From NCBI GenBank assembly GCA_030272155.1, contig CP126191.1, forward strand, positions 332,501 through 396,500: 64,000 nucleotides of DNA, given 5' to 3'. The number at the start of each line of letters is the position of its first letter. Position 1 is the stretch's first letter. Shown here in pieces: positions 2,811 to 48,641 of this stretch. The notes below the pieces were generated by a model that worked only from the letters and a program-made list of their open reading frames with translations, ran no database searches and was not told the DNA's origin. This stretch comes from Tetradesmus obliquus (Eukaryota; Chlorophyta; Chlorophyceae; Sphaeropleales; Scenedesmaceae). The translations under genes were made by a program, and so were the position numbers.

Positions 2811-2874
2811 CTAGTGCGTTGCCCTCCCTGTAGGCTGCAACACCCTGACTCTGCTGCTTTGCCGCTGCTGCCGC

Positions 2875-2907
<33 letters not shown>

Positions 2908-5900
2908 GCTAGCTCTTGCTGATCTTTCTGCTGCTGCTGCTGCCGCTCCTGCATCGCCTGTGCAGCCTCCTCCAGCGCCAGCTCCAGCACATACACAGCA
3001 GCCCCGCCAGCAGCCGCACAGCACAGCAAGCTGCGCCCTGCATTGCCGCAGCGCCCGTGCTTCTCTCCCACGCGCAGCAGCGCCAGCGCACAAAAGTAGC
3101 AGCTCCCTGGCCGCTGCAGCCGCACCTCCTGCAGGCCTGTGTCAATCTCTCGCACCAGCTGGCCTGTGGCGAGAGAGAAAGCTCCCACCACGCCACAGCC
3201 CAAGTTCATGAGGAGGTACTCGCTGCCTGTGGTGTGCAGCGTGGGCGTGAGCGCGTAGGCGGGTGCTGCTGTGCCGGCTGAGGGGTCGTGCACGTCGATG
3301 CGGGGCACCAGCTGCCGCATGGACGCCAGGCTGATGACCTGGACAAAGCAAAAAGAGCAAACACAAGCAGGAGGTGCAGGGGGCGCTGTGAGACTGAGCA
3401 GGCAGCAGGCATGGACTCCAGGCTGATGACCTGGCGGCAGAGTTGCAGCAGGTGCAGGCGGGTGTGGGGAGGTGCAGGCAGACGAGATGAGGACGGGCAG
3501 GCAGGCAACTACTTCAGCAGACAGGTCTTCAGCTAAGAGCTGCTTTGACGCCATGGTGCACTTTACTGAGGTGATGCTTGCGTTTGTGCAGACAAGAGGT
3601 GCGCAGGCTAGACTGGCAGCTACTGGGGCAGCGCCATGCCTTATGATTGATGCGACACAACGGCTCTTCATGCTCAGCAGCAGCAGCAGCACGCACTGCA
3701 CCCTGCACAATTTGCAGGCAAGCTGGCGGGCTTGCTCTGCCCTTTCTCGAGACGATTCTCTCCCTCACCAGCACTGCAAAGGTGTGGCTGGCTGAGGGGT
3801 CCTCCTGGTGCGGCGCCACCAGGCAGAAGATGAGCAGCTCGCGCCTGCTGGGCGTCAGCTCAGCAGACACCACCTGGCAGCAGCCACACAGCCACACAGC
3901 CACACAGCCACACCACAGCAGCAGCAGCATTTGGTTGATGGCAAAGTCGCATCACCGGACAATGACGTCACCTGTTGGGTGGCGGCGGGCTTTCTGCTGT
4001 GGCATGATGGCAAGGTGGGGCTCTGCTGCCTGCCTAGCCAACTGCAACAGAGCTCATACTGGGGCGACAGACACCGCACACACAAAACACTTGATGTACA
4101 AGCACACTTATGCGCAGATGCAGGCGGGTGCATGCGGCCACAGGGGCCGCCACTTCGCACAAGTGAGGCTTGCAGGCATTTGAATTGTCAAGCCGCAGCC
4201 GCACCTTCATGCCTGCGCGCACAAACGTGCAGCGCTGCTTGGCGCGCATGAGCAGCTCCCTGCTGCGTGCATCGTAGCTGCTGATCAGCAGCACATTGCT
4301 GCCTGGCTGGCTGTTGTCCAGTGGCCTGTGCAGCACCTGCCGCAGCACACGCCCGCTGCTGCCGCTGCTGCTGCTGCTGCCAGCTGGCAAGTAGCGCACC
4401 TATACAGCAGCATGGAGATGAGGCAGCAGATTTCACCGACTTTCAGCCTGCCGCATGCGGCACAGTAGCAAAGACACAGCAGAAATGGCTGCGGCACAAA
4501 GCAAGACATAGCGCAGCCTGCTGTAAACTGCCAGGTGCGGCAGCAGGCAGTTGCAAGTGTCTGCTCACCAGCCAAGGCAGGCGTGGCTGTAGCAGGAAGG
4601 CTCCTGTGGGGTCCTGCTGCAGCAACTTGGCATCAGCCCGGTCCTGTACACAGCAAGACAGGCAAGCAGCGCGCTATTCATGCAAGGCAACGCACAAAAT
4701 TTGCAGCAAATTTGGAGATTTTATGATGCAGGATAAAAGACAAGCACGGTGTGTTGGTGCGTAGCGGTGCTGCAGAGCAGGCTGCAGCTGCAGAGGTGCT
4801 GCAACAGTACGACAGACGTGCAGCTGCTGGTTGTGCAGTCGAGCAGCACAGCTGCACCTGCTGCTGCCAGCAGCAGATCAGGTCAGTAGTGTTTGATCAG
4901 TGTTGCTGCTGCTTGCTCACCTGTGCATCAGGGCAGTAGTCCGGCACCCATGTGCCCCCAGCCGCGGTGTTGGTCTTGCTGCTGCCTACACGCCCTGCCC
5001 TGCCCGGCAGTGCTGGCCAGACGGGCTGCAGGTTGCCCCTGCACGGCACACAGCACCAGCAACATTACAATTGTTAGCGGATGTTGTTCGGACTAGTTCG
5101 GCGCACCAGTGCACGGAGCAGCAGATCTGCTATGGTGGGGCAGTGAGCTCTGGCTGCTTTCTGTCACACAGACAGGAACCAATCCAGATAACTAACACGT
5201 CCTTGCAAAGCAGGCTGTTAGTATTGCATTTCAAACCCCACTCGCACATGTTGTGGATGCATGTGCTTGTGCTAGCTGCGTCACGTTTGCACATCCAGCA
5301 AGCACCAGCCAGACACCCATCCTGGCATCAGCTGCAGCTGCCCAAAAAAGAGCATCGAAACAACCGCCGCACACCTGGGCTGGCAGGTGCGCGTGCTGTG
5401 TGGCAGCTGCCAGCACTTCCTGGGCGTGAGCCAGCCGAAGCCGCAGCGCTGGCTGGCGCTGGCAGGCCACTGCGCCAGGCAGCCGCCCGCGTCCAGGCTG
5501 AGCAGGCTGGCGTCAGGCAGGAAGCCCAGGAACACCACGTGGCTGCTGTGGCCGCGGTACAGCGACTGCCGGTGTATGTACACAGTAAGGCAAGAAGGCA
5601 GGCAGGCACAAGCATCAAGTGCTGAAAGAATGCAGTTGACATGAGGCCCAGGAACACGGCGTGGCTGCTGTGGCCGCAGTACAGCGTGTGCCGGTGGTGA
5701 TGGGCAGGCAGGCAGGCAAGGGGCATGCATGTATGGTGTGAGAAGGCCGGGAACACGGCGTGGCTGCTGTGGCCGCGGTACAGCGACTGCAGGTGATGAT
5801 GGACAGGCGGGCAGGCAAAGGGCATGGTTCAAGAAGCCCAGGAACACCACGTGGCTGCTGTGACCGCGGTACAGCTACTGCAGGTGATGATGGACAGGCA

Positions 5901-6096
5901 GGCAAGCAGGCAGGCAAACAGCATGGTACACAGAGCCCAGCAATACCACATGGCTGCTGCGGCCGAGGAACTGCTTGAGCACGTACGCAACAAGGCCAGA
6001 GGGCAGGCAGGCAAAAAGCATGTAAGAAGTTGTGGCAGGTGTGTTTGTATGACGCCCAGGAAGGCGGTGTGGCTGCTGCTGTGGCACTACAGTGCG

Positions 6097-6127
<31 letters not shown>

Positions 6128-11922: not shown

Positions 11923-11954
<32 letters not shown>

Positions 11955-14753: not shown

Positions 14754-14812
<59 letters not shown>

Positions 14813-21516: not shown

Positions 21517-24500
21517 ATGAGGTCCAAGCACGCCATCGTCGCAGCCTTGGCTGCCTGTCTGCTGCTCATCATCACGCACAGCGTTGAAGCTCGTCAGTTT
21601 GCCGGCTCCTCTGCCACTGCTGCAGTGGGCTCTGCTGCTGCAAGTGCTGCTGCTGAAGCCAGTGCTGCGCAGCATGCTCTTGAAGATGCAGGCAACAGGC
21701 CTTGGTTCTGCAGGTAAGATCAAAGTGATAAACGTGAAATACGTGTGAACTCCACCGCATATTTGGTCAGCTGTACCACAGCTGGACGGTGCGGCGGGCT
21801 GTTGCATGCTGGGCGTGCATGGACACCATGCTGCTGATTGTGCATGAACTGCCTGTGTACACATGCTGAGTGCCGTCCCTCACTGTCAACCATATGGAGT
21901 ATGACCTTTGGCATAATTCAGTCCTAACCTGCAATACCGGATTAACCTCTTGCATGTTACATGCAAAATGCACCCACCACCGACTGCTGCTCCTGCTGCT
22001 GCTGAACCCATTGCTACCCCACCCACCCATCCTTCCTCCCCCCTCCCTGCAGAGGTCTGGACTGCCCATCCTTTGAGGTGGTGGAGATGCACACTTATAC
22101 ACATGCGGATCTGTGTACACAAATGCACCTGCAACCAACCGCTGCTGCTGCTGCTGCCACTGCTACCCCTGCACCTGCTGCCACCCCCTCACAACCCCCC
22201 ACCGCCAGGGGCCTGGAATGCCCCTCCTTTGAGGTTGTGGAGACGCGCATATTTACACACGCGCGGGGGCTACAAATGCGCCTGCAACCAACTGCTGCTG
22301 CTGCTGCCGCCACTGCTGCCCCTACATCTGCTGCATCCCTCTCCCACCCCCCACCGCCAGGGGCCTGGACTGCCCCTCCTTCGAGGTGGTGGAGACGCGC
22401 AAATTTACACAAGCGCGGATACACAAATGCGCTGCAACCAACTGCTGCCGCTGCTGCTGCCGCCCCTGCTGCCCCTGCACCTGCTGCATCCCCCTCACAA
22501 CCCCATACCGCCAGGGGCCTGGACTGCCCCTCCTTTGAGGTGGTGGAGACGCGCATACATACACATGCGTTGTGTACACAAATGCACCTGCAACCAACTG
22601 CTGCTGCTGCTGCCGCCACTGCTGCCCCTACATCTGCTGCATCCCTCTCCCACCCCCCACCGCCAGGGGCCTGGACTGCCCCTCCTTCGAGGTGGTGGAG
22701 ACGCGCAAATTTACACAAGCGCGGATACACAAACGCGCTGCAACCAACTGCTGCCGCTGCTGCTGCCGCCCCTGCTGCCCCTGCATCTGCTGCCTCCCCC
22801 TCACAACCCCATACCGCCAGGGGCCTGGACTGCCCCTCCTTTGAGGTGGTGGAGACGCGCATACATACACATGCGTTGTGTACACAAATGCACCTGCAAC
22901 CAACTGCTGCTGCTGCTGCTGCCGCCACTGCTGCCCCCGCACCCCCTCACCGCCAGGGGCCTGGACTGCCCCTCTTTTGAGGTGGTGGAGAGACACATAT
23001 GTGTACATGCAAACTACATAACTGCGCCTGCGACCAACTACTGCTATTGCTGCTGCTGCTGCTGCTGCCGCCACTGCTGCCCCTGCACCTGCTGCCACAC
23101 CTGCGTCTCCCCTCACCCCCAGGGGCCTGGAATGCCCCTCCTTTGAGGTTGTGGAGACGCGCATATTTACACACGCGCGGGGGCTACAAATGCGCCTGCA
23201 ACCAACTGCTGCTGCTGCTGCCGCCACTGCTGCCCCTACATCTGCTGCATCCCTCTCCCACCCCCCACCGCCAGGGGCCTGGACTGCCCTCCTTCGAGGT
23301 GGTGGAGACGCGCAAATTTACACAAGCGCGGATACACAAATGCGCTGCAACCAACTGCTGCCGCTGCTGCTGCCGCCCCTGCTGCCCCTGCACCTGCTGC
23401 ATCCCCCTCACAACCCCATACCGCCAGGGGCCTGGACTGCCCCTCCTTTGAGGTGGTGGAGACGCGCATACATACACATGCGTTGTGTACACAAATGCAC
23501 CTGCAACCAACTGCTGCTGCTGCTGCCGCCACTGCTGCCCCTACATCTGCTGCATCCCTCTCCCACCCCCCACCGCCAGGGGCCTGGACTGCCCCTCCTT
23601 CGAGGTGGTGGAGACGCGCAAATTTACACAAGCGCGGATACACAAATGCGCTGCAACCAACTGCTGCCGCTGCTGCTGCCGCCCCTGCTGCCCCTGCATC
23701 TGCTGCCTCCCCCTCACAACCCCATACCGCCAGGGGCCTGGACTGCCCCTCCTTTGAGGTGGTGGAGACGCGCATACATACACATGCGTTGTGTACACAA
23801 ATGCACCTGCAACCAACTGCCGCTGCTGCTGCTGCCGCCACTGCTGCCCCCGCACCCCCCCACCGCCAGGGGCCTGGACTGCCCCTCTTTTGAGGTGGTG
23901 GAGAGACACATATGTGCGCATGCAGACTACATAACTGCGCCTGCGACCAACTACTGCTATTGCTGCTGCTGCTGCTGCTGCCGCCACTGCTGCCCCTGCA
24001 CCTGCTGCCACACCTGCGTCTCCCCTCACCCCCAGGGGCCTGGACTGCCCCTCCTTTGAGGTGGTGGAGACGCGCGGCTCACTGCAGCTGCGGCGCTACA
24101 AGGCGGCCTGCTTCATCGTGACGCGGGTGGCGGCAGACAACCTGCTGCAGGCCCAGATCATTGCCACCAAGGTGGGGTGTGGCCGCCGTGGCTGGTTGGC
24201 TCGTCATAATCTTGTTACCCAGCAAGTTATCCATCAAGGCATGGCATCAACGTGGCTTGTTGGCTACTGGACTGTTGACGGTTGCTTAGTTCAAGCTGCC
24301 TTTATGCTGTGTTGTGAAGTGGGGTGACACAAACAGCCTGCTGCAGGCGCAGGTCAAGGCCAGCAAGGTGAGCTGTGGCCGCTGCGATAGCTGCGGCTGC
24401 GCCTGTGGGGCTGTCGAGAGTTGTTCTGCTCGATCTGCATGCAGCTGCAGCTCGTCTACACCACGTAAGGGTAAGCCAGCTGTGGCTGGCGCTGCTAGTT

Positions 24501-25614
24501 GCTGAGCCTGCCTGGGTGTGTTGTCCATGTTGCTTTCGAGCTTAAGAAGCTTGAGTACGGTGGACAACACAACCAGCCAGGCTTGCAGTCGGGCGTGCCG
24601 TAACAGCTTGCAAGCATAGTCGTGGAATTTCTTAGCTGTTTGTGTGTTGGGCGAGTAAAGTCATACTATCACTGTCCTGCAGCAGTGATAGCTAGTCATT
24701 TCACACACCACGTCACGCGCATGCAGGCAGATAACCTGCTGCAGGCGCAGACCATCGCTACCAAGGTGGGTGTGGTTGGTGCATCTGCCGACTACTGAGC
24801 ATTATGTTAAACTGTTGCTGAGTGCGAGCTTCCCCAATGAAAGTTTGTGAAGCGGGCTGGTGCAGTAGCGCAGACCACTGCCAACAAGGCAGGTGCGACC
24901 GCTGCGTCTGCGTTTGCTGTTTGTTTCTGTTTTGATTCCGTGCTGGCTGTGAGCACTGGCACTTGTTGCTGCCGCGGCTTTATCTCAAGCTTCACAACTA
25001 GAAGTACTCAAAGCCAGCACGAAATCGTTGATGCGCGTGGCGGCAGACAACCTGCTGCAGGCGCAGATCAGCGCCACTCAGGTGTGGTGGTGATGTGTGT
25101 GGGTGGGGTGGGGTGGCGTGGGGGGGGGGGTCAAATCAACTGCAGCTGCTGACTTCCGGACTGTGGCCTGTTGCTGTGGACTGTTGCTGAGTGTGAGCTT
25201 CCCCAATGCGGTCTTGTGAGCGGGTTTGAAGCAGACAGCCTGCTGCAGCCGCAGATGGTCCCCACCAAGGTGGGCTGTGCACGTGGGTACTGTTTATGTT
25301 GTTGCTGCTGCTGCTGCTGCTGCTGCTGCGGCTGCGGCTGCGGCTGCGGCTGCGGCTGCGGCTGTGGCTGTGGCTGCGCTTGTGGGGCTGATAGCGTCTC
25401 CCTGCACAATCTGCATGTTGCTGTAGCTCATCAACACCAAAACGAAGAGTAGGCCATCTGTGGCTGGCTCTGCTAGATGCTAAGCCTGCCTGGGTGTGTT
25501 GCTGACGTGCTCTCCGATGCTTGGAGAATCTGTTCAACACCACAACCAGCCAGGCTTGCGGTCAGGCACGCCGTACTGACTTTGCGAGCGAAGTCCTGGA
25601 ATATCTTGGCCTGT

Positions 25615-25645
<31 letters not shown>

Positions 25646-26808
25646 GGGGGGGGGGGGTTATGACCAGCCATCACTGTTATAGTTTTGGTGCGTGGCTGAT
25701 TTTCTCACTCCTTTGCTAAGTGGAGTCTGTAATGTACACAGTAACGCGTTTCAATTAGCTCAGCAGAAGGGATCATGACCTAGCCTGTTCAAGAAACGTA
25801 CCGCGAGGTTGCACCATTCTGCAGCAGAACCTGCGTAAGGTGCACCTTGCATATTGTTCATTTGGTGGGTAGTTTGATGAATGTTCAATTTAGCAGCAGC
25901 AGCAGCAGCAGCAGTCTGCACAACTTGCATTGCCTGGAGAGGTGGGTTCAAGTGCAGCGGTGTCACTTTTGCTGCGACGCGCACACCGCGCAGGCAGTGC
26001 TCAGGTTGGGCCACAACATCACGATGATTCAACAACTGCTGTGTTCAGCCACACCGCAGCTGTGAATGCTGCTGCTGCTGCTGCTACCGCTGCCGCGGCA
26101 GCGCCTGATCGGCTACCTTGGTGGTGACGACAACAACTGAGCTTGCTTGCTTTAACATTGCCATCACTGCTGCCGCCGCCACTGCTGCCACCGGCCCTGC
26201 TGCTGCTGCTGCCGCAGCGCCTGGTGGGCTACCTTGGTGGTGACAACGAGGACGGCATGAAGCTTCCTCCCACTGTGCCGCTCAACATGCAGCAACATAT
26301 AGGCCCGCAACCGCCGCCACTTAACCTTGCTGCTGCTGCTGCTTCTGCTGCAGCGCCTGGTGGGCTACCTTGGTGGTGAAGACAACTGAGCTTGCTTGCC
26401 ATCAGTGCTGCTGCCACTGCTGCTGCCACCGACCCTGCTGCTGCTGCTGCTGCTGCTGCCACCGACCCTGCTGCTGCTGGCGCAGCGCCTGGTGGGCTAC
26501 CTTGGTGGTGACAACGAGGATGGTGTGAAGCTGCCCCCCACCGTGCCGCTCAACAGCGTGCTGCTCACGGCCGACAGGGCCAGCCGCACCGTGAAGGGCC
26601 ACTTCTACTTTGCCATCTACCTGCCCGATGAGGTGCAGGTGGGTGGTGTGTGCGACTTTGAGGATGCAGACTGATGTTGCTGCACATGCAGTCAGTCAGT
26701 CGGGGCTTGACAGATTGCTGTAGGCAAACTGCCATGGTGTTCAGCCAGCTGGTGTTGGTTGGTCCACTTGCCTGAGGATGCATGCGCAAATTGTGATCAG
26801 ATGTTTGT

Positions 26809-26839
<31 letters not shown>

Positions 26840-28052
26840 GGGGGCAATGCCGCACATGACATTCATATGAGCGGGCAAGCATCAGTGTATATGATGCTGT
26901 GGAGTGCAATCATTTCTGGGCAGGCCAGGACAGGCTGCCGCTGCATGTAGCAGCTTCTGCATTACGGAAGGTTCTCACCCTGCCGGCCTGCAGCAGCTGC
27001 TGGATGCATTGGCAGGCGCCCTTTTACAGCCTGTATAGTTGCAACATGTTGCTGGGCTATCAGTGTGATAGATTGCTGATCATTCTGTGCTCACCCGCAG
27101 TTGCCGTAACAAGTAGCGCATTCTTTTGCTGATGCATTCCCTGCACGCCTCTGATGTGCCTCCACCCTTGCATCACCACCCATGCACCCCCGCAGCAGCT
27201 CCCACATGATGTGCCACTGTCTCTGCGCCGACTCACCTTTTACTTCTGCCTTTCTGCCTGCACCGCGTGTGGCTCCCCCCACCTGCCATGAGAAGGTGAC
27301 ACACACAGACCCAGCTGTAAAGGCAGGGTACATGCAGCACAGAGTTGGATACTTACCTTGTTGCCTACCCCTGCGCTGCCCACTGCTGCCCACTCTCCAC
27401 GTGTAGGGTGACGCGCCAAGGCCCAGCAGTAACGGCAGTTACATGCAGCATAGATTTATAATCACCTTGTTGCTTGTTCCTGCGCTGCCCTCTGCTCCCC
27501 ACCTGCTGCCTGCAGGGTGACGCGCCAAGGCCCAGCAACCGCGACGTGCACCTGGTCAAGCTGCACAGGCGCGCCTTCTGGGTGCAGGCCTTCGACTCAC
27601 CCATCCTAACCGAATCTTCCCTCATCGCCCGCGGCTGGCAGCTGATTGAGCAGCTGCAAGACATGCGGCGCAAGGTGGATGACCGCTTCTTTGTGTTCTC
27701 GCTGTACGAGCCGCCGCTGCCGTTTGTGCCGCATCATTATGAGATTGCGGTGCGGGCGCGCTGCAGGAGGCATGGTGATACACCTGATGTCACACCTGTG
27801 AAAGCAGAGGTTGGGCTTGCAGGAGATGGAAAGGGTAATGATGATGTTCATGCTGATGTTGATGAGTGGCTGGGAGCAGTTGACAAGGAGGTTGAGGTCG
27901 GGGGTGTAATCGCCCCGGTGGATGACGCCGTCATAGGCGATGGCGACGACGACGACGATTACCCGCTGCCTGAGGAGGGCGGCGGTGATGCGGATGATGA
28001 CATGTGTGAGGATGACAGCCCTGATCTCAGCGAGGTGCTAGCAACGATTTGA
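21517..28052 (+). CDS. SOUL family heme-binding protein with signal peptide
   Basis: Four exons with matching phases: 21517-21713, 24036-24171, 26486-26638 and 27516-28052, giving about 340 residues. The N terminus is a clear signal peptide (basic RSK, then a hydrophobic run AALAACLLLII, cleavage probably after VEA), so the protein enters the secretory pathway or an organelle by that route. The SOUL domain follows: CPSFEVVETRGSLQLRRY matches the conserved start of the family (polypeptide, then a basic RRY), then the RLVGYLGGDNEDGVKLPPTV core and the FYFAIYLP strand, ending with the block around WVQAFDSPILTES. SOUL/HBP proteins bind heme or other tetrapyrroles. The C terminus is an Asp/Glu-rich tail. 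Only 1023 of 6536 bases are coding. The introns are filled by copied exon edges, described separately. Function beyond the family is inference. Confidence 0.85.
22053..24035 (+). repeat. Thirteen acceptor-plus-exon-start copies before SOUL exon 2
   Basis: Copies of the pyrimidine-rich intron end, the AG acceptor and the first 38-45 bases of exon 2 (GGGCCTGGACTGCCCCTCC...) start at 22053, 22209, 22361, 22514, 22666, 22821, 22956, 23123, 23274, 23428, 23580, 23734 and 23870. The complete exon begins at 24036. Spacing is about 152 bases, but the order of spacings 152, 153, 152, 155, 135, 167 repeats as 151, 154, 152, 154, 136, 166. Thus six-unit blocks of about 913 bases (22209-23122 and 23123-24035) were themselves duplicated. 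The long open frames on both strands here are by-products of the repeat. Confidence 0.95.
24325..25271 (+). repeat. Exon-end copies downstream of SOUL exon 2
   Basis: The last 35-45 bases of exon 2 (GCAGACAACCTGCTGCAGGC through ACCAAG, then GTGGGG) recur in the following intron at about 24325-24369, 24724-24764, 24851-24893, 25035-25081 and 25226-25271. Most keep a GT directly after the AAG or CAG. All lie downstream of the full exon. Longer similarity between the copies includes the flanking CTGTTGCTGAGTG...GCTTCCCCAATG segment, seen before two of them. Confidence 0.85.
25614..26844 (+). repeat. Composite (TG)n-(G)n tracts in SOUL introns
   Basis: Two tracts of (TG)n running directly into a long G run lie at about 25614-25659 and 26802-26844. 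A third, weaker one (GTGGGGTGG... into ten Gs) lies near 25102-25130. All are on the sense strand of the same gene. Confidence 0.75.
26102..26400 (+). repeat. Three exon-start copies before SOUL exon 3
   Basis: The acceptor CGCAG and start of exon 3 (CGCCTGGTGGGCTACCTTGG) occur in truncated form at 26102, 26217 and 26354; the full exon starts at 26486. The copy at 26217 retains about 70 exon bases, the others about 30. Each is preceded by its own CTG/CCG pyrimidine tract. Confidence 0.9.
27296..27515 (+). repeat. Two exon-start copies before SOUL exon 4
   Basis: Exon 4 starts GGTGACGCGCCAAGG at 27516. A close copy with a TAG acceptor starts at 27407 and a more decayed one near 27297, so the unit is about 109 bases. 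The intervening CCTTGTTGC...CTGCGCTGCCC segment is duplicated too. Confidence 0.8.
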
Positions 28053-29726: not shown

Positions 29727-30527
29727 CAGCAGCAGCAGGAGAAGCGTATCAAAGCAACACCCATCATGGAATGACGGCTGACCTAGGATGGTGACGGCCA
29801 GTGCACCATCGCCAGCTTGCCTCCAGCAGCGCAGCCATATCACTGCGCTGTACCATTGTAAACATACGCACACCTCAACCACACCAGAACAGAAGTGCAG
29901 CGACCCAGCCCAGCCACTGCTCCAGGCCCCGACCAGGCTGCCACGCTTACACACAACACAACAGACGCTGCTTCAAACTGGCCACTATTCAAAACCAGGC
30001 AACTCGAGCTAGGTTATTCTCCTTCCACTCACATGGTGTAGTCCTCCAAGCTGAGCCCCACAGCAGCACACATCGTGGGCTCACTTGCAGTCAGCCAGAA
30101 GCGCAGCGGCACCTGCTGGTGCGCCAGCCACTGCTCCAGGCTCAACCCCGGCTGCCACGCCTCGTGGCTGGGCAGCAGCAGCCGCACCTGCATTCATCAT
30201 TCATATGCATTCAAATTTGCACAGGGTGACAGCTGTTGGCAACCAGAAAACACTGAGACGGCTCACAGACGCTTGCATGTGACCGGGCTGACCATGCAAC
30301 AAGTCCAGTCAGCACCAAACATTCATGTGCAATACGCATAGTTGCATTTGTGGAACTGAAAGCTAGCCAAAGCACCAATGGCTGCCACGCCTCATGGCTG
30401 GGCAACAGCAGCAGCCGCACCTGGCGCTTGCGCGCGTACAGGATGCGCGGGCCTAGGCGGCTGCGGATGGGCAGGGAGAGGAGCTCCGGCAGCAGCACTA
30501 CGTCGGCCAGGCTGGCCTGCAGCAGCA

Positions 30528-30558
<31 letters not shown>

Positions 30559-32272
30559 GGTTGCAGGAGCAGCAGCAGCGTTGCAGGAGTAGGGGTTTCA
30601 GCAGACGGCAGCAAGCGGTGGCAAAAGAAAAAATAGCGTACATATACACAGGAGCTACAGACGGCGTACAGGATGCGCGGGCCCAGCCGGCTGCGGACGG
30701 GCAGGGAGAGGAGCTCCGGCAGCAGCACCACGTCAGCCAGGCTGGCCTGTTGGCAGCAGGGGTAGCAGGGGTTGTAGGGGTTGCAGGAGCAGCAGCACAG
30801 GGTTGCAGCGGCAGCAGGCGTTTGCAGCAGGCAGGCAAGGCATAGGCGCAAAAGCTGCAGCTGGTGTGCACAGAATCACAACTTCTGCAAGGACGTTTGC
30901 GCGCAACACATGTGATGCTTTCCATGGTTTGTAGCAAGCACGCAGTCGTTGCACCCTTGGTGGCGGCTCCCAACACCAAATCCATCACGCTTGCAGCTGT
31001 CTTGCTACTACACCTGCACCCGCAAACTTACGCACTCCATCCCCGCAGCAGCACCGCCTTAACACACGCTTCCCTCAAAAGCATCCATCCACCAAAGCTG
31101 GCAGCTGCCACCACACTGTGCAAAAGGCCTGCAACCACAGCTGCACGCTTTCCCACCCAACCCACACGCCGCCTCCCCAGCACCCACCTTGGCCACCGTG
31201 GACACAAGGTGCCACTGCGCCGTCAGATCCTGCAGCGGGCGCACCAGCCACTCCGCAATCCTCATAGCAGCACACCAAATGCCGACTAATTCTCAGCAAC
31301 CACGCATGCCAATACACACCTCTTGCCCCTAGTTCGAAGCATATCTCACCGATTTGCACCTGTCATGCTACACACACACACACACACCTGTAGCTGCAGC
31401 TACACACCCTAAACCATCACAAACACCCACCTTGGCCACCGTCGACACAAAGTGCCACTGCGCCGTGAGCTCCTGCAGCGGCCGAGCCAGCCACTCCGCA
31501 CTGCGCAGCACCATACCCTGCAGCTCCTGCTGCCTTAAACCCAGGCCCACCAAGAACCCCAGGTTTAGCGAGGCAGGCCCAGCACCAGCCAGCAGCAGCT
31601 TTGGGTGAGTCATCAGCAACTCCTCTGCTTGCTGTTTTGACAGCTTGAGGCGGTGCAGCAGCAGCGTGAGGAACTCCTCTACGTGCTGCTTTGTTAAGCT
31701 GAGCACGGCTGGTGCTTTCTTCAGCAGCTGCGGCAGGGGCAAGTCTGGCAGCTGCTTGTGAAGGTGCTGCAGCATCTCCCCTGGCCACGCTGCTGCCGCT
31801 GCTGCAGTGGCTGCTGCTAGTGCTGCTGCTGCTGCTGATGGTGTTGGTGACGCTGATGATGATGGTGCGTCTGCTTCTGCTGCTTCTGCTGCTTCCGCAG
31901 CCGCTGCCGCCGCGGCTGCGGCGGCCTCCTTTGCTGCTCTTTTTGATGTCGGTGCAGATGTGTTTCTTGGGCCCCAGAGCAGTGCCGGCCGCTGCAGCAG
32001 GACCTCTAGCACATCTCTGTTGTACATGTGTGCGGCGCTAGCCACCTCGTCAACAAACGCGGCTGCATGCCGCGGCTGCGGGGCTGCCTTGCCGCGCAGC
32101 GCTACGTTGCGCGCAGTGCGCGCCAGAGCAGCAGCAAGCTGATCTACTAGCGCCTCACAGCTGCTGCTGCTACTGCTGCTGCTGCTTTCCGAAGAGGGTC
32201 GGGTGCGGCTCACGTCCAGCGCACTCACTACTGCCTGAGCCACCTCCCGCAGATGCTCGCTGCTGCAACCCG

Positions 32273-32317
<45 letters not shown>

Positions 32318-32937
32318 CTTTGCTGGCCGAGCCCGGTTTGATGCCCTGCTTCTGGAGCATCTTCATTCTCAATGCCGCCTCATGCACTAGCATCATATTT
32401 ATAAGGATGTGGAACTGCTGCTGCTGCTGCTGCCGCTGCTGGAGCTTCTTGGCATCCCTCATGAGCACCTGCAGGTGGGTATGAAAGTGCAAAGTGTAAG
32501 CAGTCTGCTGACGATAGCGCTTCCGGGTCCTGCTGTTACCTCAGATTTCCACTGTGCGGTTGTCACACCAAGGGCACCAAACAACACACCTGCAGGTGGG
32601 TGGCCAGCTGCTGCAGCACAGATGCGCTGTGTGCCTGCTGCTGCTGCTGCTGGTGCAGCAGCTGCTGTATGCTAGGGCCAGCTAGCACCTGCTCCAGTGC
32701 CTGATGCGGCACCAGAGCTAGCACTGCACGCAGCTCTGCAGGAACTGGCTGGTGGCTTATGCCCAGGCATCGCAGCAGATGCAGGTTGTGTGCAAACGTG
32801 CAGCTGCTGAAGTCTGTCTGCAGGAACGTCTGCAGCTGGGGCTGCTCGTGCAGCAGCTGCTGCGCCTGCGAGGATGTAAGGCCTGCTATCTGCTGCCATA
32901 CGGCAACAGCGTATTGTAACGAGGCTGGAGCAGCAGG

Positions 32938-32994
<57 letters not shown>

Positions 32995-37737: not shown

Positions 37738-37752
37738 TTTTATGTTGTCAGC

Positions 37753-40015: not shown

Positions 40016-40026
40016 ATGTTGTCAGC

Positions 40027-41482
40027 CGAAGAAGAAGAGGGGTTACACGGTGTGCACAGGCAACTACGTTGCAACGAACACCCGAAAATCTGGAACGTCG
40101 CAGATGACTCAGCAAAACAGGCCGTCACTCAAGGAGACTCACCCCAGAAAGTCTCTCTGTGTGTGTAACTTGACATATGGCCTTGCAGGCAAAGCCGTCA
40201 GTCACAGCACGCGCAGTGTTGATGCTAAACAAAGGCATGACTAGTGTAAACAGTGTCAGTGACAGCAAGCTGCACTTTATGCAGTGCAGCGGGCGGGCAT
40301 GTTGTCGGCCGGAAGAAGAAGAAGAGGGGTTACACGGTGTGCACAGGCAACTACGTTGCAACGAACACCCAAAAACACAGGAAAACTGCAGGAAGCTCAG
40401 CACAGGCCGTCACTCATGTGAGGCCCAACCCCAGAGAATTGGCCCCCGTGTGTAAGTTTCGGCATATGGCCATGCTAGCACAGCCGCCTTCCTTACTCCA
40501 CACAGTTCGCCCCCATGTTGTCAGCAGAAGAAGAAGAAGAAGAAGAGGGGTTACACGGTGTGCACAGGCAACTACGTTGCAACGAGCACCCGAAAACACA
40601 GGAAAACTGCAGGAAGCTCAGCACAGGCCGTCACTCATGTGAGGCCCAACCCCAGAGAAATGGCCCCCGTGTGTAAGTTTCGGCATATGGCCATGCTAGC
40701 ACAGCCGCCTTCCTTACTCCACACAGTTCGCCCCCAGAAAATGTATCCTCATACGCGAAGTGGAAAAATAAAGTGCTGCCAGCAGTGTCAGTGACGGCAA
40801 GCAATGCAGAGAGAACACAGGGCCGCCATGCACTAACTGCATTGCGGGCGGGCTGAGCTCACCAAGCCGCAGCTCAGCCTGGGGCGGAGCGCAGCTTGGG
40901 CAGTGAGAAGATGGCTGGAAAAATGCAGAGCTGCCCAGAGGCACACAAACAGGACCGCATGTCACAGCGGCTTGTCAGCAGCCACTCAGCAGACCAAACA
41001 AGCTTCCACCCAACGGGCAGGTCAAATAGCAAAGGCAAGGCACTATTGTGCAGAATGCCAGCGCCAGCGCCAAAACATGATGCACTACCTTCGGCTGCCA
41101 GTGTAAACACGGCATGGCCCCAAAAGCAGTGGCAAGGCATGCAGCACAGGCACAGACAGACTCGGCCAAAACATGCAGAGCCTTTGGTGAGAACACGAAG
41201 AACCACGCAAAAGGCTGCCCAGCATGTTGTCAGCCGAAGAAGAGGGGTTACACGGTGTGCACAGGCACTACGTTGCAACGAACACCCGAAAATCTGGAAC
41301 GTCGCATATGACTCAGCAAAACAGGCTGTCACTCAAGGAGACTCACCCCAGAAAGTCTCTCTGTGTGTGTAACTTGACATATGGCCTTGCAGGCAAAGCC
41401 GTCAGTCACAGCACACGCAGTGTTGATGCTAAACAAAGGCAGGACTAGTGTAAACAGTGTCAGTGACAGCAAGCTGCACTTT
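40027..41482 (-). mobile_element. Four further head-to-tail LINE 3'-end copies
   Basis: Copies at 40027-40298, 40310-40514, 40526-41223 and 41235-41482, all minus-strand and all truncated at the 5' side. Each shares the same 3' terminus (GTTACACGGTGTGCACAGGC on plus, next to a GAAGAAG tail). The second and third belong to a diverged subfamily that carries TGAGGCCCAACCCCAGAGAA. Between the copies the word ATGTTGTC(A/G)GC recurs at 40299, 40515, 41224 and 41483. The array looks like repeated insertion at one target word rather than simple tandem duplication. Confidence 0.75.
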
Positions 41483-41585
41483 ATGTTGTCAGCCTGGTTC
41501 GAACTGCCGCCGCCAAAATCGCCCTTCACAAACCATTGGTTCTGCTGCGATCGCCAGAAACGCCATGGAGGTTCCCTTGACCCCA

Positions 41586-41658
41586 GGGGATTTAGCTCAA
41601 TTGGTAGAGCGCTCGCTTCGCATGCGAGAGGTCGGGGGTTCGATTCCCTCAATCTCCA
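41586..41658 (+). tRNA. tRNA-Ala (anticodon CGC)
   Basis: 73 bases fold as a standard cloverleaf: acceptor GGGGATT pairs with AATCTCC (one G-T), D stem GCTC/GAGC, anticodon stem CTCGC/GCGAG around loop TTCGCAT with anticodon CGC, and T arm GGGGG TTCGATT CCCTC (one G-T pair). The discriminator base is A and there is no intron. Internal A box (TAGCTCAATTGG) and B box (GGTTCGATTCC) are intact, so RNA polymerase III transcription is expected. It decodes GCG. Confidence 0.97.
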
Positions 41659-42665: not shown

Positions 42666-45067
42666 TCAAGCAAACACAGCGCTGCTGCCGCGCCGATGCC
42701 TCCTACCACCAGCACCCCCCGGCACACCCTTCGCAGCCGGCTGCTGCTGCCGCTGCCGCTGCCGCTGGCGCTCCTCCTGCTGCTGCTGCCGCTCCTGCCG
42801 TGCCTTAAACGCCCAGCCGGCCGCCCCACCCAGCAGCAGCAGCGCACCCCATGAGGCCAGCTTGCGAGTCAGGGCCAGCATCTTCTGCCGCTGCCTTACC
42901 TCCCACCCTTCAGGCTGCGAGATGTCAAACATCATGCGCTGCAGCGTGCGCTTGCGCAGCTTGCGGTGCCGCCTGCCGCGCTTCTCATGCTTGGCTGCAG
43001 CACTGCTGCTGCTATCGCTCGTGCTGCCGTCGCCGGCTTCAACTGCTGCCGACTTGATTTTGCCTTCTGTGTATACGTTGCCCCTGATGCTGCTGCTGCT
43101 GGCGGTGGAGTCTGCCGAGTGCTGCTGCTGCAGCAGCTGCTGCTGCTGCCGCGGCGACATGTGCGGCTGCACCTGCTGCTGCTGCTGCTGCTGCCGGCCC
43201 TCCAGCAGCATGCGGGTATCAGGCAGGTGCATCGGCAGCACCCGTGGCAGCACCTCAAACAGCAGCCTGGGCAGACAAACAAACAGACAACAGCAGCAGC
43301 GGCAGCACAGTCAAGCCATGCCGGTGGTAAATGCACACGTAACTAAACCGTGGAATGCAGCTCTGATGTGTTGCTTGCAACAGGACACTCTTGTAGGATA
43401 GTAGCCTGTGCAGCATACCGCACACACCTGCTACCTCTTGTCCTACCCTTGCATACGTACACAAAGCAGCCCAAGATCCACATGCGCACGCGCACAACAA
43501 GTACACATACGGCTACTTCAGCACACAGTTGAGCACAGCATTTACATCTGCAAACTCATTGGCTGCACGATCATGTTCCACGCTCGCACGTGCCGCTCGC
43601 CTCCTCAGGCTCCCCATCCCTGTTCACTGAGATACATAGTAAAAAAAAATTCACATACGGCGGAGACAAATACAACATATCTAATTGACTGCGCGCGCAC
43701 CTGTGGCTGGCCTCCTCAGGCTCCCCGTCCCTGTTCACTGGGATGGGCCCAGCCCCCCGGGGCAGTGCAGCGCTGTGCAGCAAAAAGATGAATGGCAACC
43801 AACAGCATTTGTACCATGCCTTTGACACCTGCTGGCTCTTTCCTACCTTGTCCCCTGCACCTTCAAACCACACGCATGTGCACAATCGACTTGTGCATAA
43901 CTGTAAACAATCTGCATGCCCCCACCTGTGGCTGGCCTCCTCAGGCTCCCCGTCCCTGTTCACTGGAATGGGCCCCGCCCCAGGCGGCGCCTGCAGCAGC
44001 AGCCAGCTGGCGCGCAGCTGCGCGATGCCGCGCTCGACTGCGGCGCGGCCGTTGCCACCACCCACCAGCGCACCCAGCAGTGCAGTGGCCTGCAGGGAAG
44101 GGGCAGCAGTTGTAGAGGGGGTGTTCTGAGGCACAGCAAGATTAAGTGCAAGTACATGAACCAACTGCGGCGCGCCCATTGCCGCGCCCACCAGCGCACC
44201 CAGCAGCGCTGTGGCCTGCGGATCGTGCAGCAGAAGGGACACAGTATTTCTATATATCAACGGGAAAGCAAGAGATCGATGGGGCAATTGCCGCCACCCA
44301 CCAGGGCTCCTAGCAGCGCTGTGGCCTGCGGATTGTGCAGCAGAAGCAACACAGTATTTCTGTTTATCAGCGGGAAAGCAAGAGATCGATGGGGCCATTG
44401 CCGCCGCCCAGCACCGCACCCAGCAGTGCAGTGGCCTGCAGGAGAGGAGACACGGCGGGGAAAGCAGAAGGAGGGCAGGACGGTGACATGGTGCCGCTGG
44501 CTGAAGTGCGCAATGCCGATCAGGCGTGCATTGGGCTGTGGATGAATCACAGCTTGAGTGAACATAGCGGTATAGATCGGCAGGCAAAGAGAGGCACGCT
44601 AAAGCCACCGCCAGCAGGCTTGACATCGGCTCGCAGCACACATGCGCACAGGCGCGCACGTAGAGGCCCCTGCCAGCCAGCAAGCGCATATACGACAGGA
44701 GCAGTGATATAGGGTGACAGAGGTGTGCCGCCAGTGCAGCACTCATGCTGCTGCTGCTGCTGTGCTGCTGCCACTGCTGCCGCACCTCGCTCGCGGCGCT
44801 CTCCCCTGTCCACAGTGTAAAGTCCAGCAGGCCGTCATCCAGCAGCGCGTCAGGGCACACCTGGCGCAGCAGCAGCAGCAGCAGCAGCAGGTGCGTAACG
44901 TTAACACAGAGCGGCAGCACATAGTACGAGAGATTCCAGCAGGCGGTCACGCAGCACCCGAATGCGAAACAGTTGACGCAGCAGCACACAACACAGCACG
45001 CAAAAGCGAACTGTGTGCAGTATGTGAGCGAGTGAGCATGGCAGCTACCAAAGCAGGAACGCAAAAG

Positions 45068-45114
<47 letters not shown>

Positions 45115-46872
45115 AAGGTTCGGGGGCATGGTAACGCGCCCCGTAACCCGTCAGGACCAACACTGTTCATCGCGCATGCACATGACTGCGCTGCACCCCT
45201 CATGCGCAGCCTCACCTTGACGCGCCGCCCCATCTGGCGGCTGTTGCCCACAGCCAGCATCAACACGTCAGCAGTCAGGCTCTTGGCTGAACCACCACCT
45301 GCACCACTGCTGCTGCCACTAGCCCCAGCAGCAGCAGGCGTGCTGCTGCGGCTGTGGCTGCGGCTGTCGTTGTTGTCACTGCCGGTGAGAGGTGGCGCTT
45401 GCAGCTGGCCTGCAGAGCCGCCTACACCTGGAGGTGGCTGCAGATGCCCTGCGGTCAACGATTGCGTTGCATGCCACGCCAGCATGCTCAGGTTCTCTGG
45501 CTCAGCAGCTGGTTCAGAAGCAGCAGGTCCCTCATCTTGTGGCGGATGTGCACTTGTGCTGGTGGCAGCTGCTGGGGGCGGTGCTGCTGCTGCTGCTGTG
45601 CCTGCTGACTGGCTGCAGAAGGTGATGGCTGTCTGCTTGTGGGGCTCCATTGACCCCGGGGTGACCACACGCTTGAGCACTGAGCAGCAGCAGCAAGTAG
45701 GAGCAGATGGGTGGCAGTTGCGTTTGGTTCAAAACATAATGCACATATGGCACTTTTCAAGTGCTTTGAGGCTCCATTGACCCCCGGGTGACCACGCGCT
45801 TGAGAACTGGCCATGCAGCAGCAGCAGCAGCAGGCGCAGATGGCGGATGTAGGGTTGTAAGGCATTCGCATGCATTCATGACTGTCCAGATGTAAGCTAC
45901 ACAGGTTTTGTGGAGTGCAGGCGCATCATAAGCCAACGTGGCCAGGTTCGGGCACGGCTAAAGCAGCTCTACTGCTGGAGGAGACATCCGCCTCTTATCT
46001 GCCATGCCTCATGCCTATCAGGGGTGCTGCCAACGCCAGCATATTCGCAACTATCAAATTATAGCTCAGCTTAGCACCTGCCGTGGATGGTGTTGCGTAA
46101 ATCATAAGCTCATGACTGACAGCACACCATCCATGAGAGGTGCTAGCTTCTGACACCAAATCTTCCTGTACAGATCACAAGAACGAAAAACACTAGGCCC
46201 CCTCAAATTTTGCGATCAACAGTATACACCAACACTCAACGTGGAAGCCACTTGCTGGGTTTGATGGGTTTCAGCAGCAGCTTCAGCGGGCTGTCCAGCT
46301 CCTCGGGTGACACCAATCTGCACAAAGAACTTGCCACAGCACTTGCTGAAACCCGTCACGAAACAGCTTCATGCGTTGACTATCATTTAAAGCGCGTTTC
46401 AACTACGGTGCGCCGTCGGCGCTCTCACAAATTGCAGAACACGCCATCCTCTCACCACCCCGCAAACACTCACCATGAAACCCGATTGCAATCGGCCCCA
46501 GCAGCCGCTTGAGCGGGCTTGCCAGCTCCTCAGGTGACACCTCAGCAATGCTGCCCGCCACCGCGATGTTCACAAAGTGCTTGCCGTTAACTGCAGCCAC
46601 GTCGATGGGGCGGATGCAGCCAGGGTCCAGCGCGGTTTTAAGCGCAGCCAGCGGGTCCTGCAAGCACGGCAGCAGCATTAACACAGACACATACGAGTAC
46701 TGCAGAGAAAAGAGGTGCTGTACAATGTCTTCACACCTCAAGAAGGTAATGCAGCAGTCCAGAAAGCCTGTACGGCGCATGCATCGCCACATGATGCAAC
46801 ATTGGACAGGTCCACAAAGGGAAGAGCTTGCCGTGCTGCTAGCGTGCACAGGGTTGGCTTCAGCAAAACCTT

Positions 46873-46916
<44 letters not shown>

Positions 46917-47572
46917 CGCATGCCACACACCGCCGCATGCCCCACATGCCCCACGCCTCACCACTGGGATGCCAGCCGTGCAGGCAAAGTGCCATTCGTT
47001 TGCTGTGCCCAGCGGCAGAACCACAACAGCACACACAAGCACGGCCGTGTCACTTCCACCTTGATCTGCCCCACTCACCACTGAGATGCCAGCAGTGCAG
47101 GCAAAGTCGTTGGCTGTGCCCAGCGGCAGCAGCGCCACTGCCAGGCCCAGCTTGTGCACAGCCTCCTTGTGGTCCATCATGGCAGCCACCACCTCGTTGA
47201 GGGTGCCGTCACCACCGCCTGCAGCAGGCAATGCATGCAAACGCATCGACTGGTTAATCAATTCATACATATGCACAGGCGGCAACCATTTGGTTCAGCG
47301 CAAGTCCAATCACAATCAAGAGATATGTCCCTGCCGTGCCGTACTCTGTGCACACAGAGCAGATGCTGGCAGGGGTAGTGCAGTACAAGGTGTCAAAGGT
47401 CTTCTGGCTCCGCATCCACAGTAAAGGCGCTGCCACAACAGCAGCAGCAGCAGCAGCAGCACACCTGCCACGATGGTCTCGTAGTTGGCGGTGCCTGACT
47501 CCTTGAGTCGGATGGCCTCAGCCACGAATGCATCCACGTCACCACGGTCAAACGTGACACGCACAGAGATCT

Positions 47573-47623
<51 letters not shown>

Positions 47624-48641
47624 GCAGCGGCAGCGGCAGCGGCAGCGGCAGCGGCAGCGGCAGCAGCGGCAGCAGCAGCAGCAGCATAAACTGCATTTTA
47701 CCCCAGCACACTGACAGAAAGCCGCAAGCATGCCGAACCACGTGACAGCCCATCACATCACTGTGCTGCACCAGCTGCAGCATCCACAGTTGGTCTGCAG
47801 TGTACTGACTGCCCATGTGCGCATGTTCAAACAACACATTAACACAGAAAGCTGTGCCTAAACAGCAGTCACAGTAATGCCACCGCACCTGGTGGCCCTC
47901 CTCCTTGAGGCTGCTGATGGCGTCCCGCACCAAATCATCATCCACACGCTTGCCATGCAGGATCACCAGCAGGCTGCGCGTTGTTGCAGGGTCTAGCCCA
48001 CTGCCAGCGCCGCGCCCTGCCGCTGCTGCTGCTGCTGCTGCTGGTGGTTTCTTCTTATCCTTTTTCCTCCTGGCAGTGCTGCTGGGGCCGTGGTCTGACG
48101 CAGCTGCAGGTGCTTCTGCGGGGGGATCTTCTGTTGGTGGCAGCCTTGTTGGCTTGGCAGGGGCAGCAGCAGGAGCGGGCGGGGCCGCCTGCAGGTAACA
48201 GCAGGAGACCAGAGTGGCGTGTGTTGGTGCATGTTGTTGCGGGACATGGTACGTGCATTGGCAGCACATACTACGTGCTGTGCCTGATGCCACTGCTAGC
48301 AATGACTGCTGGGAGGAAGGTGTGGATGTGATATAGCGATGTACAGGCGAAGCAGGTATTGACTGTGTTGCATGCCTGTCCATGCGATCAATGCACAGCA
48401 GCTGCTGGTGCTGTATGCGCACTGTGCCACTGTACACGCTGCTGAAGCATCTGCTGCAGCTCCACGGCAGCTGTCCTTGTAAAATACATTGTAGCTGACA
48501 AACAAGCACATCACGTGCCTGCTTTGGCCGAGCTTTGGTGGTGGTGGCCATGTTTCGCGTCAGGACCCGCCTTGCTGCTGTCTGCTGTGCTGCCGGCGTT
48601 CGTGCTTGCTGGCAAGCAGCAGCGTTATGCTGAAGCTTCAC
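42666..48641 (-). CDS. YegS-like lipid kinase (diacylglycerol/sphingosine kinase fold)
   Basis: Exons with matching phases: 48188-47890, 47570-47465, 47218-47079, 46657-46474, 45679-45216, 44860-44786, 44089-43926 and 43266-42666. A first exon from Met 48641 (or 48551) to 48519 fits only with a GC-AG intron and would supply a transit-like peptide (Ala/Arg/Gln-rich). The catalytic fold is clear: [10 protein letters not shown], then [11 protein letters not shown] (nucleotide-binding glycine loop), [48 protein letters not shown], and the closing [12 protein letters not shown]. Such enzymes phosphorylate a lipid hydroxyl using ATP. A Ser/Ala/Pro-rich insert of about 120 residues splits the fold, and the C terminus has a single hydrophobic helix ([17 protein letters not shown]) then a basic Gln/Arg tail, suggesting membrane anchoring. 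The substrate is not readable. Confidence 0.85.
43595..43765 (-). repeat. Two exon-end copies downstream in lipid kinase
   Basis: The end of the exon at 44089-43926, coding [14 protein letters not shown], recurs downstream at about 43765-43702 and 43640-43595. The first copy keeps AGCCACAG followed by GTGCGC as donor; the second is more decayed. Long read-through frames here are artefacts of these repeats. Confidence 0.9.
44160..44440 (-). repeat. Three exon-start copies upstream in lipid kinase
   Basis: The acceptor CTGCAG and exon start coding [14 protein letters not shown] (true exon at 44089) recur at about 44437-44398, 44332-44283 and 44219-44160. Two of them share a 115-120 base unit with an AACACAGTATTTCTGT segment. 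All lie upstream in transcript sense. Confidence 0.9.
45765..45812 (-). repeat. Exon-start copy, lipid kinase
   Basis: The start of the exon at 45679 (coding [12 protein letters not shown], after CTCAG) is copied about 125 bases upstream with a CCAG acceptor, reading [12 protein letters not shown]. The copied frame then meets a stop within ten codons. Confidence 0.8.
46243..46312 (-). repeat. Exon-end copy, lipid kinase
   Basis: The end of the exon finishing at 46474 ([17 protein letters not shown]) is copied about 170 bases downstream as [17 protein letters not shown]. The donor is not well kept. Confidence 0.75.
46966..47035 (-). repeat. Exon-end copy, lipid kinase catalytic segment
   Basis: The end of the exon finishing at 47079 ([17 protein letters not shown] before GTGAGT) is copied about 110 bases downstream as [19 protein letters not shown], again followed by GTGAGG. 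Confidence 0.85.
47571..47690 (-). repeat. CTG tract abutting a 3' splice site
   Basis: On the transcript strand about 100 bases of CTG and CCG triplets end directly in the CAG acceptor of the lipid kinase exon at 47570. The triplet run takes the place of a normal pyrimidine tract. Confidence 0.85.

Follow-up and report, generated by a model that had tools for sequence, protein, structure and literature searches.

Exon-edge copies in introns of Tetradesmus obliquus and their probable origin by tandem duplication across splice borders

Our results show that introns of Tetradesmus obliquus hold partial copies of the edges of their own flanking exons, with copies of exon starts lying upstream of the full exon and copies of exon ends lying downstream of it, both in the 64,000-nucleotide stretch of contig CP126191.1 analysed here (the window) and in sequence from two other chromosomes. 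These copies are best explained, in our judgement with good probability, by tandem duplication of segments that straddle a splice border, the extra exon edge being then stranded in the intron. The strict order is expected; the surprising part is that tandem repeats with periods of at least 80 bp cluster at exon borders, unlike shorter minisatellites.

Sample, gene models and genes of the window

Three blocks, making up 304 kb of the 104.66 Mb genome, were examined by comparing strong local direct repeats with predicted splice borders, in gene models that are predictions without RNA support. The window (W) and 200 kb of another chromosome formed the training set of the gene finder, and 40 kb of a third chromosome was used for prediction only; the latter two (blocks B and C, 240 kb) were unseen when the preliminary description of the window was made. 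At least 14 copies were called small exons by the gene finder. Five of them were in the window, where they were deleted by hand and the SOUL gene model was rebuilt by hand before counting, and nine were among the 11 small exons that a rule flagged as copies in blocks B and C, the two flagged but kept (B 47704-47853 and C 292-405) being at gene ends. The SOUL exon start is 24036 (AG), but the computation took 24037 and hence read GG there.

It could be argued that the whole pattern is an artefact of gene prediction, as the gene finder was self-trained, 14 of the exons that it predicted were deleted as copies, and block B had more apparent exceptions before that deletion. However, the splice signals that the program learned are sharp (AG/GTGAG and TGCAG/G), and among the proteins of blocks B and C, taken with copies excluded, the Pfam matches to Peptidase_S49 (spanning several bordered exons, with 126 residues on 126 positions) and to Bax1-I (206 residues on 205 positions) run through the retained exons with a net insertion of at most one residue. 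Homoserine_dh was also matched end to end, but with 205 residues on 173 positions. We consider an artefact very improbable.

The preliminary description had placed the copies in WD, SOUL, mTERF and lipid kinase genes (Table 1). With exons assembled by hand and copies excluded, the last three names were confirmed because the proteins matched Pfam SOUL, mTERF and DAGK_cat above the cut-offs, while the WD name was not, the WD40 match being weak and far below cut-off.

Table 1. Bordered exons of the window and the copies of their edges (d, spacing in bp)
Gene	Feature	Position	Strand	Details
WD	Full exon, start (acceptor 5565) copied upstream	5375..5565	-	
WD	Four copies of exon start 5565	5640..5974 (5640-5687, 5742-5786, 5830-5877, 5934-5974)	-	d 122, 221, 312, 411; period 99; AG retained in second and third only
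WD	Exon, start copied at 3409-3430	2844..3338	-	
WD	Copy of exon start 3338	3409..3430	-	21/22, AG kept, d 92
SOUL	Exon, start copied upstream and end downstream	24036..24171	+	
SOUL	Array of 13 exon-start copies with acceptor	22050..24030 (e.g. 23871-23904, 23735-23773, 23581-23619)	+	153/306-bp unit
SOUL	Exon-end copies	24330..25269 (24330-24367, 24711-24765, 25024-25081, 25231-25269)	+	with GT
SOUL	Next exon, start copied upstream	26486..26638	+	
SOUL	Three copies of exon start 26486	26102..26379 (26102-26131, 26224-26287, 26354-26379)	+	all with AG
SOUL	Last exon, start copied at 27407-27428	27516..28052	+	
SOUL	Copy of exon start 27516	27407..27428	+	22/22, AG kept, d 109
mTERF	Exon, end copied downstream	31431..32468	-	
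mTERF	Copy of exon end 31431	31188..31257	-	63/70, GT kept, d 243
mTERF	Exon, start copied upstream	30421..30516	-	
mTERF	Copy of exon start 30516	30664..30746	-	78/83, AG kept, d 230
mTERF	Exon, start copied at first base of preceding 233-bp intron	30033..30187	-	
mTERF	Copy of exon start 30187	30380..30420	-	37/38
Lipid kinase	Exon, both edges copied	43926..44089	-	
Lipid kinase	Two copies of exon end 43926	43590..43756 (43701-43756, 43590-43629)	-	54/56 and 35/40, with GT
Lipid kinase	Three copies of exon start 44089	44176..44442	-	110-bp period
Lipid kinase	Exon, start copied upstream	45216..45679	-	
Lipid kinase	Copy of exon start 45679	45762..45806	-	41/45, AG kept, d 127
Lipid kinase	Truncated end-type copy of 46499-46541	46272..46314	-	
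Lipid kinase	Exon, end copied downstream	47079..47218	-	
Lipid kinase	Copy of exon end 47079	46962..47018	-	48/51, GT kept, d 117

Order, decay and splice sites of the copies

Comparison of the window with itself by blastn found 136 direct pairs at most 3 kb apart and no inverted ones. With microsatellites masked and a threshold of at least 36 bits there were 146 direct pairs, many of them within the SOUL array, none inverted and none against the reversed sequence, and the local direct repeats of the window are far above chance. Direct and inverted pairs above the same threshold numbered 47 and 2 in block B and 37 and 2 in block C. The copies are thus direct and also close, with a median distance of 123 bp from the border, as tandem duplication requires.

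When copies within 1.5 kb of a border were counted in the window, 12 of the 140 predicted borders had one, with eight of eight exon starts copied upstream and four of four exon ends downstream; two more borders, lipid kinase exon start 44089 and exon end 46474 (truncated copy), were found by another route, in keeping with the earlier count of about 12 boundaries on both strands. Copies come within 15 bp of the exon edge in 29 of 31 exon-intron pairs of the window. The window exceptions are 29910-29946, in the intron downstream of mTERF exon 30033-30187, which copies an internal stretch of that exon lying 27 bp from its nearest edge, and the lipid kinase copy 46272-46314, which ends 25 bp short of exon end 46474. 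The rule that starts are copied only upstream and ends only downstream held almost fully in blocks B and C, where a copy was detectable in 36 of 289 introns: among copies located in introns, those of exon starts lay upstream at all 19 borders and those of exon ends downstream at 22 of 23, the remaining one upstream. As observations that would speak against intron growth by border duplication, the preliminary description had named equal numbers of start copies on the two sides, many internal-exon copies in introns, and an equal density at non-boundary DNA. What was found in the unseen 240 kb was 19 start copies upstream against none downstream and internal-exon copies in 4 of 61 exon-intron pairs, every one in a single block C gene; the long arrays described below favour borders as well, and the proposal stands supported.

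In the explanation that we prefer, a segment of about 60 to 250 bp (typically about 120 bp) across a splice border would be duplicated in tandem. For the mRNA to stay intact, splicing would have to go on using the first donor and the last acceptor, which would strand the extra exon edge in the intron, downstream of the true donor for an exon end and upstream of the true acceptor for an exon start. Each event would lengthen the intron by about one unit, the stranded copy would decay as unconstrained DNA, and repeated rounds would build arrays such as that of 13 copies in the SOUL intron. We agree with the preliminary description that tandem duplication across a splice site gives this order, given survival of intact mRNA; since tandem duplication and selection for intact mRNA force the order, it is by itself weak evidence of anything special. 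We infer that every copy arose by a DNA-level tandem event and is passed over in splicing.

Introns with a copy are longer, with a median of 419.5 (n=36), than introns without one, whose median is 258 (n=253; p 1e-8), although longer introns also offer more room for copies. Copies are clustered by gene (chi2 114.2, df 37) and borders of the same gene lack independence; p-values calculated as if borders were independent are therefore too small. Across 38 genes, no link was found between copy density and GC3 or CDS length (Spearman p 0.29 and 0.59).

The copies decay roughly like unconstrained DNA. For the 17 of 53 nearest copies whose intron half aligned over 25 bp or more, divergence was 0.069 at codon positions 1 and 2, 0.161 at position 3 and, in the intron half, 0.174; a neutral copy should give ratios of 1:2:2, which these values approach. 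Whole-unit tandem copies were also found, for instance at C 20022-20194, with 100% identity over 89 bp and a d of 84, and at C 39554-39819, with 91% identity and a period of 88. Coding constraint on the copies was considered and rejected, as third-position bias is strong only in the well-kept subset and rates look neutral where intron halves align.

The retention of AG or GT at 46 of 53 nearest copies, together with the small exons that the gene finder predicted at 14 copies or more, could suggest that the copies are functional, as alternative or cassette mini-exons or as useful duplicate splice sites. However, the decay of the copied splice sites is about what is expected, their strength being near that of neutral decay, and use of a copy is predicted to cause a frameshift in 42 of 52 cases and an in-frame stop in 7, with 3 left open, which means a broken protein in 49 of 52. 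By eye, an acceptor stood just before many exon-end copies, which suggested mini-exons, but against controls the inner edges of the copies showed no clear excess of another splice site (p 0.08 for an acceptor in 40 copies, p 0.51 for a donor in 47 copies). Function is improbable, and the look-alike splice sites are probably unused.

The intron side of the copies fits the simplest tandem duplication less well. A match over at most 12 bp of the intron half was found for 31 of the 53 nearest copies, a larger share than a simple neutral model of tandem duplication predicts, and one of at most 7 bp for 27 of 53, against 18-19% in neutral simulations; some copies, such as that at B 16493 (44/49; z -0.4 and -0.8), have an exon half about 90% identical and show no sign of intron homology. 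Among copies at least 90% identical, third codon positions hold 67% of the differences (49/73) against 47% under neutrality with assumed rates, and among all 53 the share is 0.532 against 0.468 expected (p 0.025). Spacers 43757-43918 (lipid kinase) and 30191-30379 (189 bp of the 233-bp mTERF intron) are single copy in the genome. These features would suit duplications flanking filler DNA, as in staggered-break repair, or exon halves kept alike by gene conversion, in place of plain tandem duplication, a reading that we hold to be possible though doubtful. Against it, the intron halves of the short-match group still show weak homology in excess of mismatched controls (30 tested, with a mean z of 1.9; the controls themselves average 0.95, which makes the shuffle null too lenient), and 17 of the 53 copies have longer aligned intron halves. 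In favour of tandem duplication, 14 of 34 copies had an intron half that matched better than mismatched controls did (p<0.05). Tandem duplication across the border is still the preferred reading, but short intron halves and third-position bias misfit its simplest form, and either filler inserted with the duplication or gene conversion by the exon may play a part.

Repeated units in introns can also resemble copies of this kind if a mobile element or introner carries exon edges, and 38 of the 46 genome matches of the SOUL array stretch do lie elsewhere. These 38 matches are short (28-64 bp) and score weakly, though, and the long matches all fall within its own array. When four sequences from the window, units or spacers, were searched against the genome, none was found shared whole among genes: two are the single-copy spacers, a third matches its own array only and the fourth is the SOUL array stretch. 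The window has no near inverted copies. A dispersed element is scarcely credible as the source.

Preference of long repeats for exon borders

Tandem Repeats Finder placed 15 of 17 non-exonic arrays (period at least 80 bp, score at least 200) at borders, or 13 of 17 on a strict count that takes two arrays built of border copies as intronic, against an expected share of about 0.35. This null sums the shares of border, small border and multi-border classes against intron and intergenic ones, with uniform breakpoints on today's gene map. By comparison, 2 of 10 arrays with periods of 40-79 bp, which had lower scores, were at borders.

Such a preference is not predicted by the tandem-duplication model. 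One account is that duplication is uniform everywhere and borders only seem favoured since exon halves are recognisable for longer: the real exon is constrained, its pair with the copy would diverge half as fast, and intron halves are often unrecognisable. However, uniform duplications simulated with neutral decay and the same detection gave a border share of just 0.30-0.32 (border, intron and intergenic classes), and Tandem Repeats Finder needs similarity over the whole unit and still placed most arrays at borders, which makes this account rather unlikely. Tentatively, a mutational process targeted to exon-intron borders can be considered, in which tandem duplications of about 120 bp would be seeded at or anchored in exons, for example where exonic DNA is nicked or RNA-paired, and introns would lengthen mainly via edge copies. 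As a guess, the preference may come from repair of staggered breaks anchored in exons. Fill-in of staggered breaks by CST and Pol alpha-primase is a route to short, sequence-independent tandem duplications (PMC8355091); that work is on mouse and human cells, the part of it considered here does not mention exon borders, and the link to the Tetradesmus genome would be our own.

Relation to known systems and meaning

Creation of introns by tandem duplication is already known. Intron gain by AGGT tandem duplication, as far as the portion of its description used here goes, resembles the present case in that a short local duplication in a gene duplicates splice motifs and one copy is spliced out, but here the intron usually pre-exists and gets longer, the duplicated segment crossing an existing border. 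Intron gain requires intron length to equal the spacing, which was found at 1 of 53 nearest copies, the mTERF intron between 30187 and 30420 (d 233, AG/GT layout resembling intron gain), and even there 189 bp have no other match in the genome; AGGT intron gain was thus rejected as a general account. In Drosophila, novel introns arose from tandem duplication of coding sequence (PMC2891723), and the part of that report considered describes, as here, an exonic tandem duplication with one copy intronised, but new intron positions were created there, whereas here positions stay and length grows. In human segmental duplications, internal tandem repeats at exon-intron boundaries alter gene structure (PMC2812944); these concern recent paralogs and minisatellites, and the sections consulted describe no order rule or border enrichment. 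Our literature search, with most subscription literature outside its scope, found no description of border-straddling duplication as a genome-wide habit, which is weak evidence of its novelty.

The lengthening of introns is commonly ascribed to transposons and drift, and here about one eighth of the sampled introns carry a readable record of border duplication, whose decay makes intron growth measurable. The stranded copies mislead gene finders, as the predicted exons removed here illustrate, and they also serve as an experiment of nature on which of several near-identical sites splicing picks. If confirmed genome-wide, the border preference would point to a mutation process tied to exon-intron structure.

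Copies of exon borders in three genomic blocks

The genome containing the window comprises 104.66 Mb in 17 contigs. Genes were predicted with a gene finder self-trained on the window and block B (C2:2000001-2200000, 200 kb of another contig), with training converging at 40 genes and 326 introns; these predictions had a median intron of 260.5 bp and a median exon of 153 bp, and the learned splice signals were AG|GTGAG at donors and TGCAG|G at acceptors. The same model was applied to block C (C9:2000001-2040000, 40 kb of a third contig). Predicted proteins of the window, some of them trimmed by hand, gave Pfam matches to SOUL, DAGK_cat, mTERF, Peptidase_C1 and Ion_trans, while the sole match of the WD gene, WD40, was far under the cut-off, as were the leucine-rich-repeat matches of another gene. 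The four proteins searched from B and C matched Homoserine_dh with amino-acid kinase, Peptidase_S49, Bax1-I and a helicase.

Repeats were assigned to a border when they lay no more than 1.5 kb apart, included at least 12 exon bases and came to 8 bp or less from the predicted border. Before counting, the SOUL gene model was rebuilt by hand and small predicted exons that themselves duplicated part of a longer one were taken out (5 in the window; 9 of the 11 decoy-like exons flagged in B and C). Without this removal apparent exceptions in B were more numerous, because predicted decoy exons were then counted as real. Copies were carried by 32 of 484 borders in B, 13 of 94 in C and 12 of 140 in the window.

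The preliminary description held that partial copies of exon starts lie only upstream of the full exon and copies of exon ends only downstream. This stands in the window, with 8 of 8 intronic start copies upstream and 4 of 4 end copies downstream, and it holds on two other chromosomes, where B and C had start copies 19 upstream and 0 downstream and end copies 22 downstream and 1 upstream. The lone wrong-side case (B 185208/185079) sits within an array of exon-like copies. Copies in predicted exons or outside genes comprised, in B, end copies downstream (2) and upstream (1) and start copies upstream (1) and downstream (1), and, in C, start copies upstream (2) and an end copy upstream (1). Of 92 exon-intron pairs, 86 came to 15 bp or less from an exon edge (B 35/35, C 22/26, window 29/31). 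At C9:2026460-2027480 (C 26460-27480), the introns of one gene carry pieces that resemble internal sequence of a predicted exon further along (26968-27711). B and C showed no other cluster of copies from inside an exon, and the gene model here is perhaps wrong.

Probable tandem duplication and the fate of the copies

Duplication of a segment spanning an acceptor would give the order intron tail, exon head, intron tail, exon, in which only splicing at the last acceptor would preserve the protein; duplication across a donor would have the mirror-image outcome. Hypothetical use of the copied sites, taking the copy nearest each border and omitting the SOUL start, would cause a frameshift in 42 of 52 cases and an in-frame stop in 7, leaving 3 open. 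The order therefore tests tandem duplication against scattered insertion, and it is the pattern to be expected when tandem duplicates are subject to splicing. Strong local repeats (at least 36 bits, no more than 3 kb apart, microsatellites masked) were direct in 146 cases in the window, 47 in B and 37 in C, and inverted in 0, 2 and 2, respectively; reversed-sequence controls gave 0 matches of at least 36 bits within 3 kb in each block. Short tandem duplications are generated by fill-in at staggered breaks, as outlined in PMC8355091, and passages of PMC2812944 describe intron-altering repeats at exon-intron boundaries in human segmental duplications.

The 53 nearest copies had a median spacing of 123 bp (82-146 bp in 43), and their exon part spanned 21-142 bp. 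AG or GT was present in 46 and a GC donor in 2 more; the SOUL-start copy fell outside the 46 through a one-base coordinate offset (GG listed). Spacings that are multiples of three were under-represented (10 of 53, p 0.015), perhaps because in-frame, stop-free units turn into exon. Copies were present in 36 of the 289 introns of B and C; these 36 had a median length of 419.5 bp vs 258 bp for the others (p 1e-8), though long introns also offer more room. Across the three blocks copies were strongly clustered by gene (chi2 114.2, 37 df, 38 genes): the aspartokinase-homoserine dehydrogenase gene had 9 copied borders, and some genes with 10-19 introns had none. No relation of copy density to GC3 or CDS length was seen among these genes.

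Exons differed from their nearest copies at 118 of 1700 sites in codon positions 1 and 2 and at 134 of 837 in position 3. If the exon is constrained and its copy drifts neutrally, the expected ratio is about 1:2, and paired intron halves should likewise come out at about 2. Where the alignment took in at least 25 bp of intron half (17 cases), divergence was 0.069, 0.161 and 0.174 for positions 1 and 2, position 3 and the intron half. Donor copies had a mean score of 2.40 vs 2.08 predicted under neutral decay, and acceptor copies 1.41 vs 2.11. On these comparisons, the copies read as drifting, unused sequence.

Short intron matches and particular loci

Other features are at odds with simple tandem duplication. 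The match extended no more than 7 bp into the intron in 27 of 53 nearest copies, against 18-19% in simulations, and some of these copies had very similar exon halves (B 19910, 53/54; window 43926, 54/56). Of 34 copies tested, 14 had intron halves that exceeded mismatched-event controls at p<0.05, and in the short-match group the similarity of intron halves was only weak (mean z 1.9 vs 0.95 in controls, 30 tested). Third codon positions held 49 of 73 differences (67%) in copies at least 90% identical, and all exon differences in nine SOUL array copies examined (7/112; other positions 0/228). Gene conversion from the exon, a duplication accompanied by filler DNA, or more rapid decay of introns could each account for this.

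Features of two introns in the window
Feature	Position	Description
SOUL intron array	22050-24075	13 exon-start copies, 153-bp unit, 306-bp higher-order period
mTERF intron, 233 bp	30188-30423	first ~40 bases copy start of next exon

The SOUL array appears to be a satellite grown out of a splice border. In the mTERF intron (30187/30420), length and spacing are both 233 bp, which is the layout of AG|GT intron gain; duplication of an exonic AGGT segment in tandem is an accepted route of such gain, as presented in PMC3443670. The remaining 189 bp of the mTERF intron, however, match nothing else in the genome. Separately, minisatellites at 8208-8370 and 52607-52719 of the window, in introns of two unrelated genes, have a common stretch, AGCCAACGAGAGGCTCATAGGG.

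Preference for borders

Copy order alone leaves the specialness of borders unproven. When uniform duplications were simulated, using the spacings observed, letting the copies decay neutrally and applying identical detection, the border share was 0.30-0.32. By blastn, B and C had 41 borders with an intronic copy on the expected side and 22 pairs without such a border (B 8, C 14). No border family was found for B 97524 (a 44-bp minisatellite), 36872 and 130850, for C 3776, 33902 and the gene-end array at 1524 (3 pairs), or for 5 pairs at C 26460-27480 involving predicted-exon interior; assigning the remaining borderless pairs to border families was a judgement call.

Tandem Repeats Finder provided a test independent of exon conservation. 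With a period of at least 80 and a score of at least 200, it returned 18 arrays in B and C: 13 crossing borders, 2 intronic and built of border copies, 1 exonic, 1 intergenic of low complexity and 1 at a gene end. Borders accounted for 15 of the 17 non-exonic arrays (p 9e-6 vs 0.35 expected), or 13 of 17 on a stricter count (p 6e-4), both values ignoring gene clustering. Among arrays of period 40-79, kept from a score of 50, 2 of 10 non-exonic cases crossed borders. In the window, the cut at a period of 80 and a score of 200 gave 3 arrays at borders, 2 of border copies and 1 intergenic. The window also holds intergenic direct repeats of 180-290 bp at 37736-41485, some pairs being 97-99% identical, which are long and young and involve no border. 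The aspect worth pursuing is the enrichment at borders, rather than the order of the copies.
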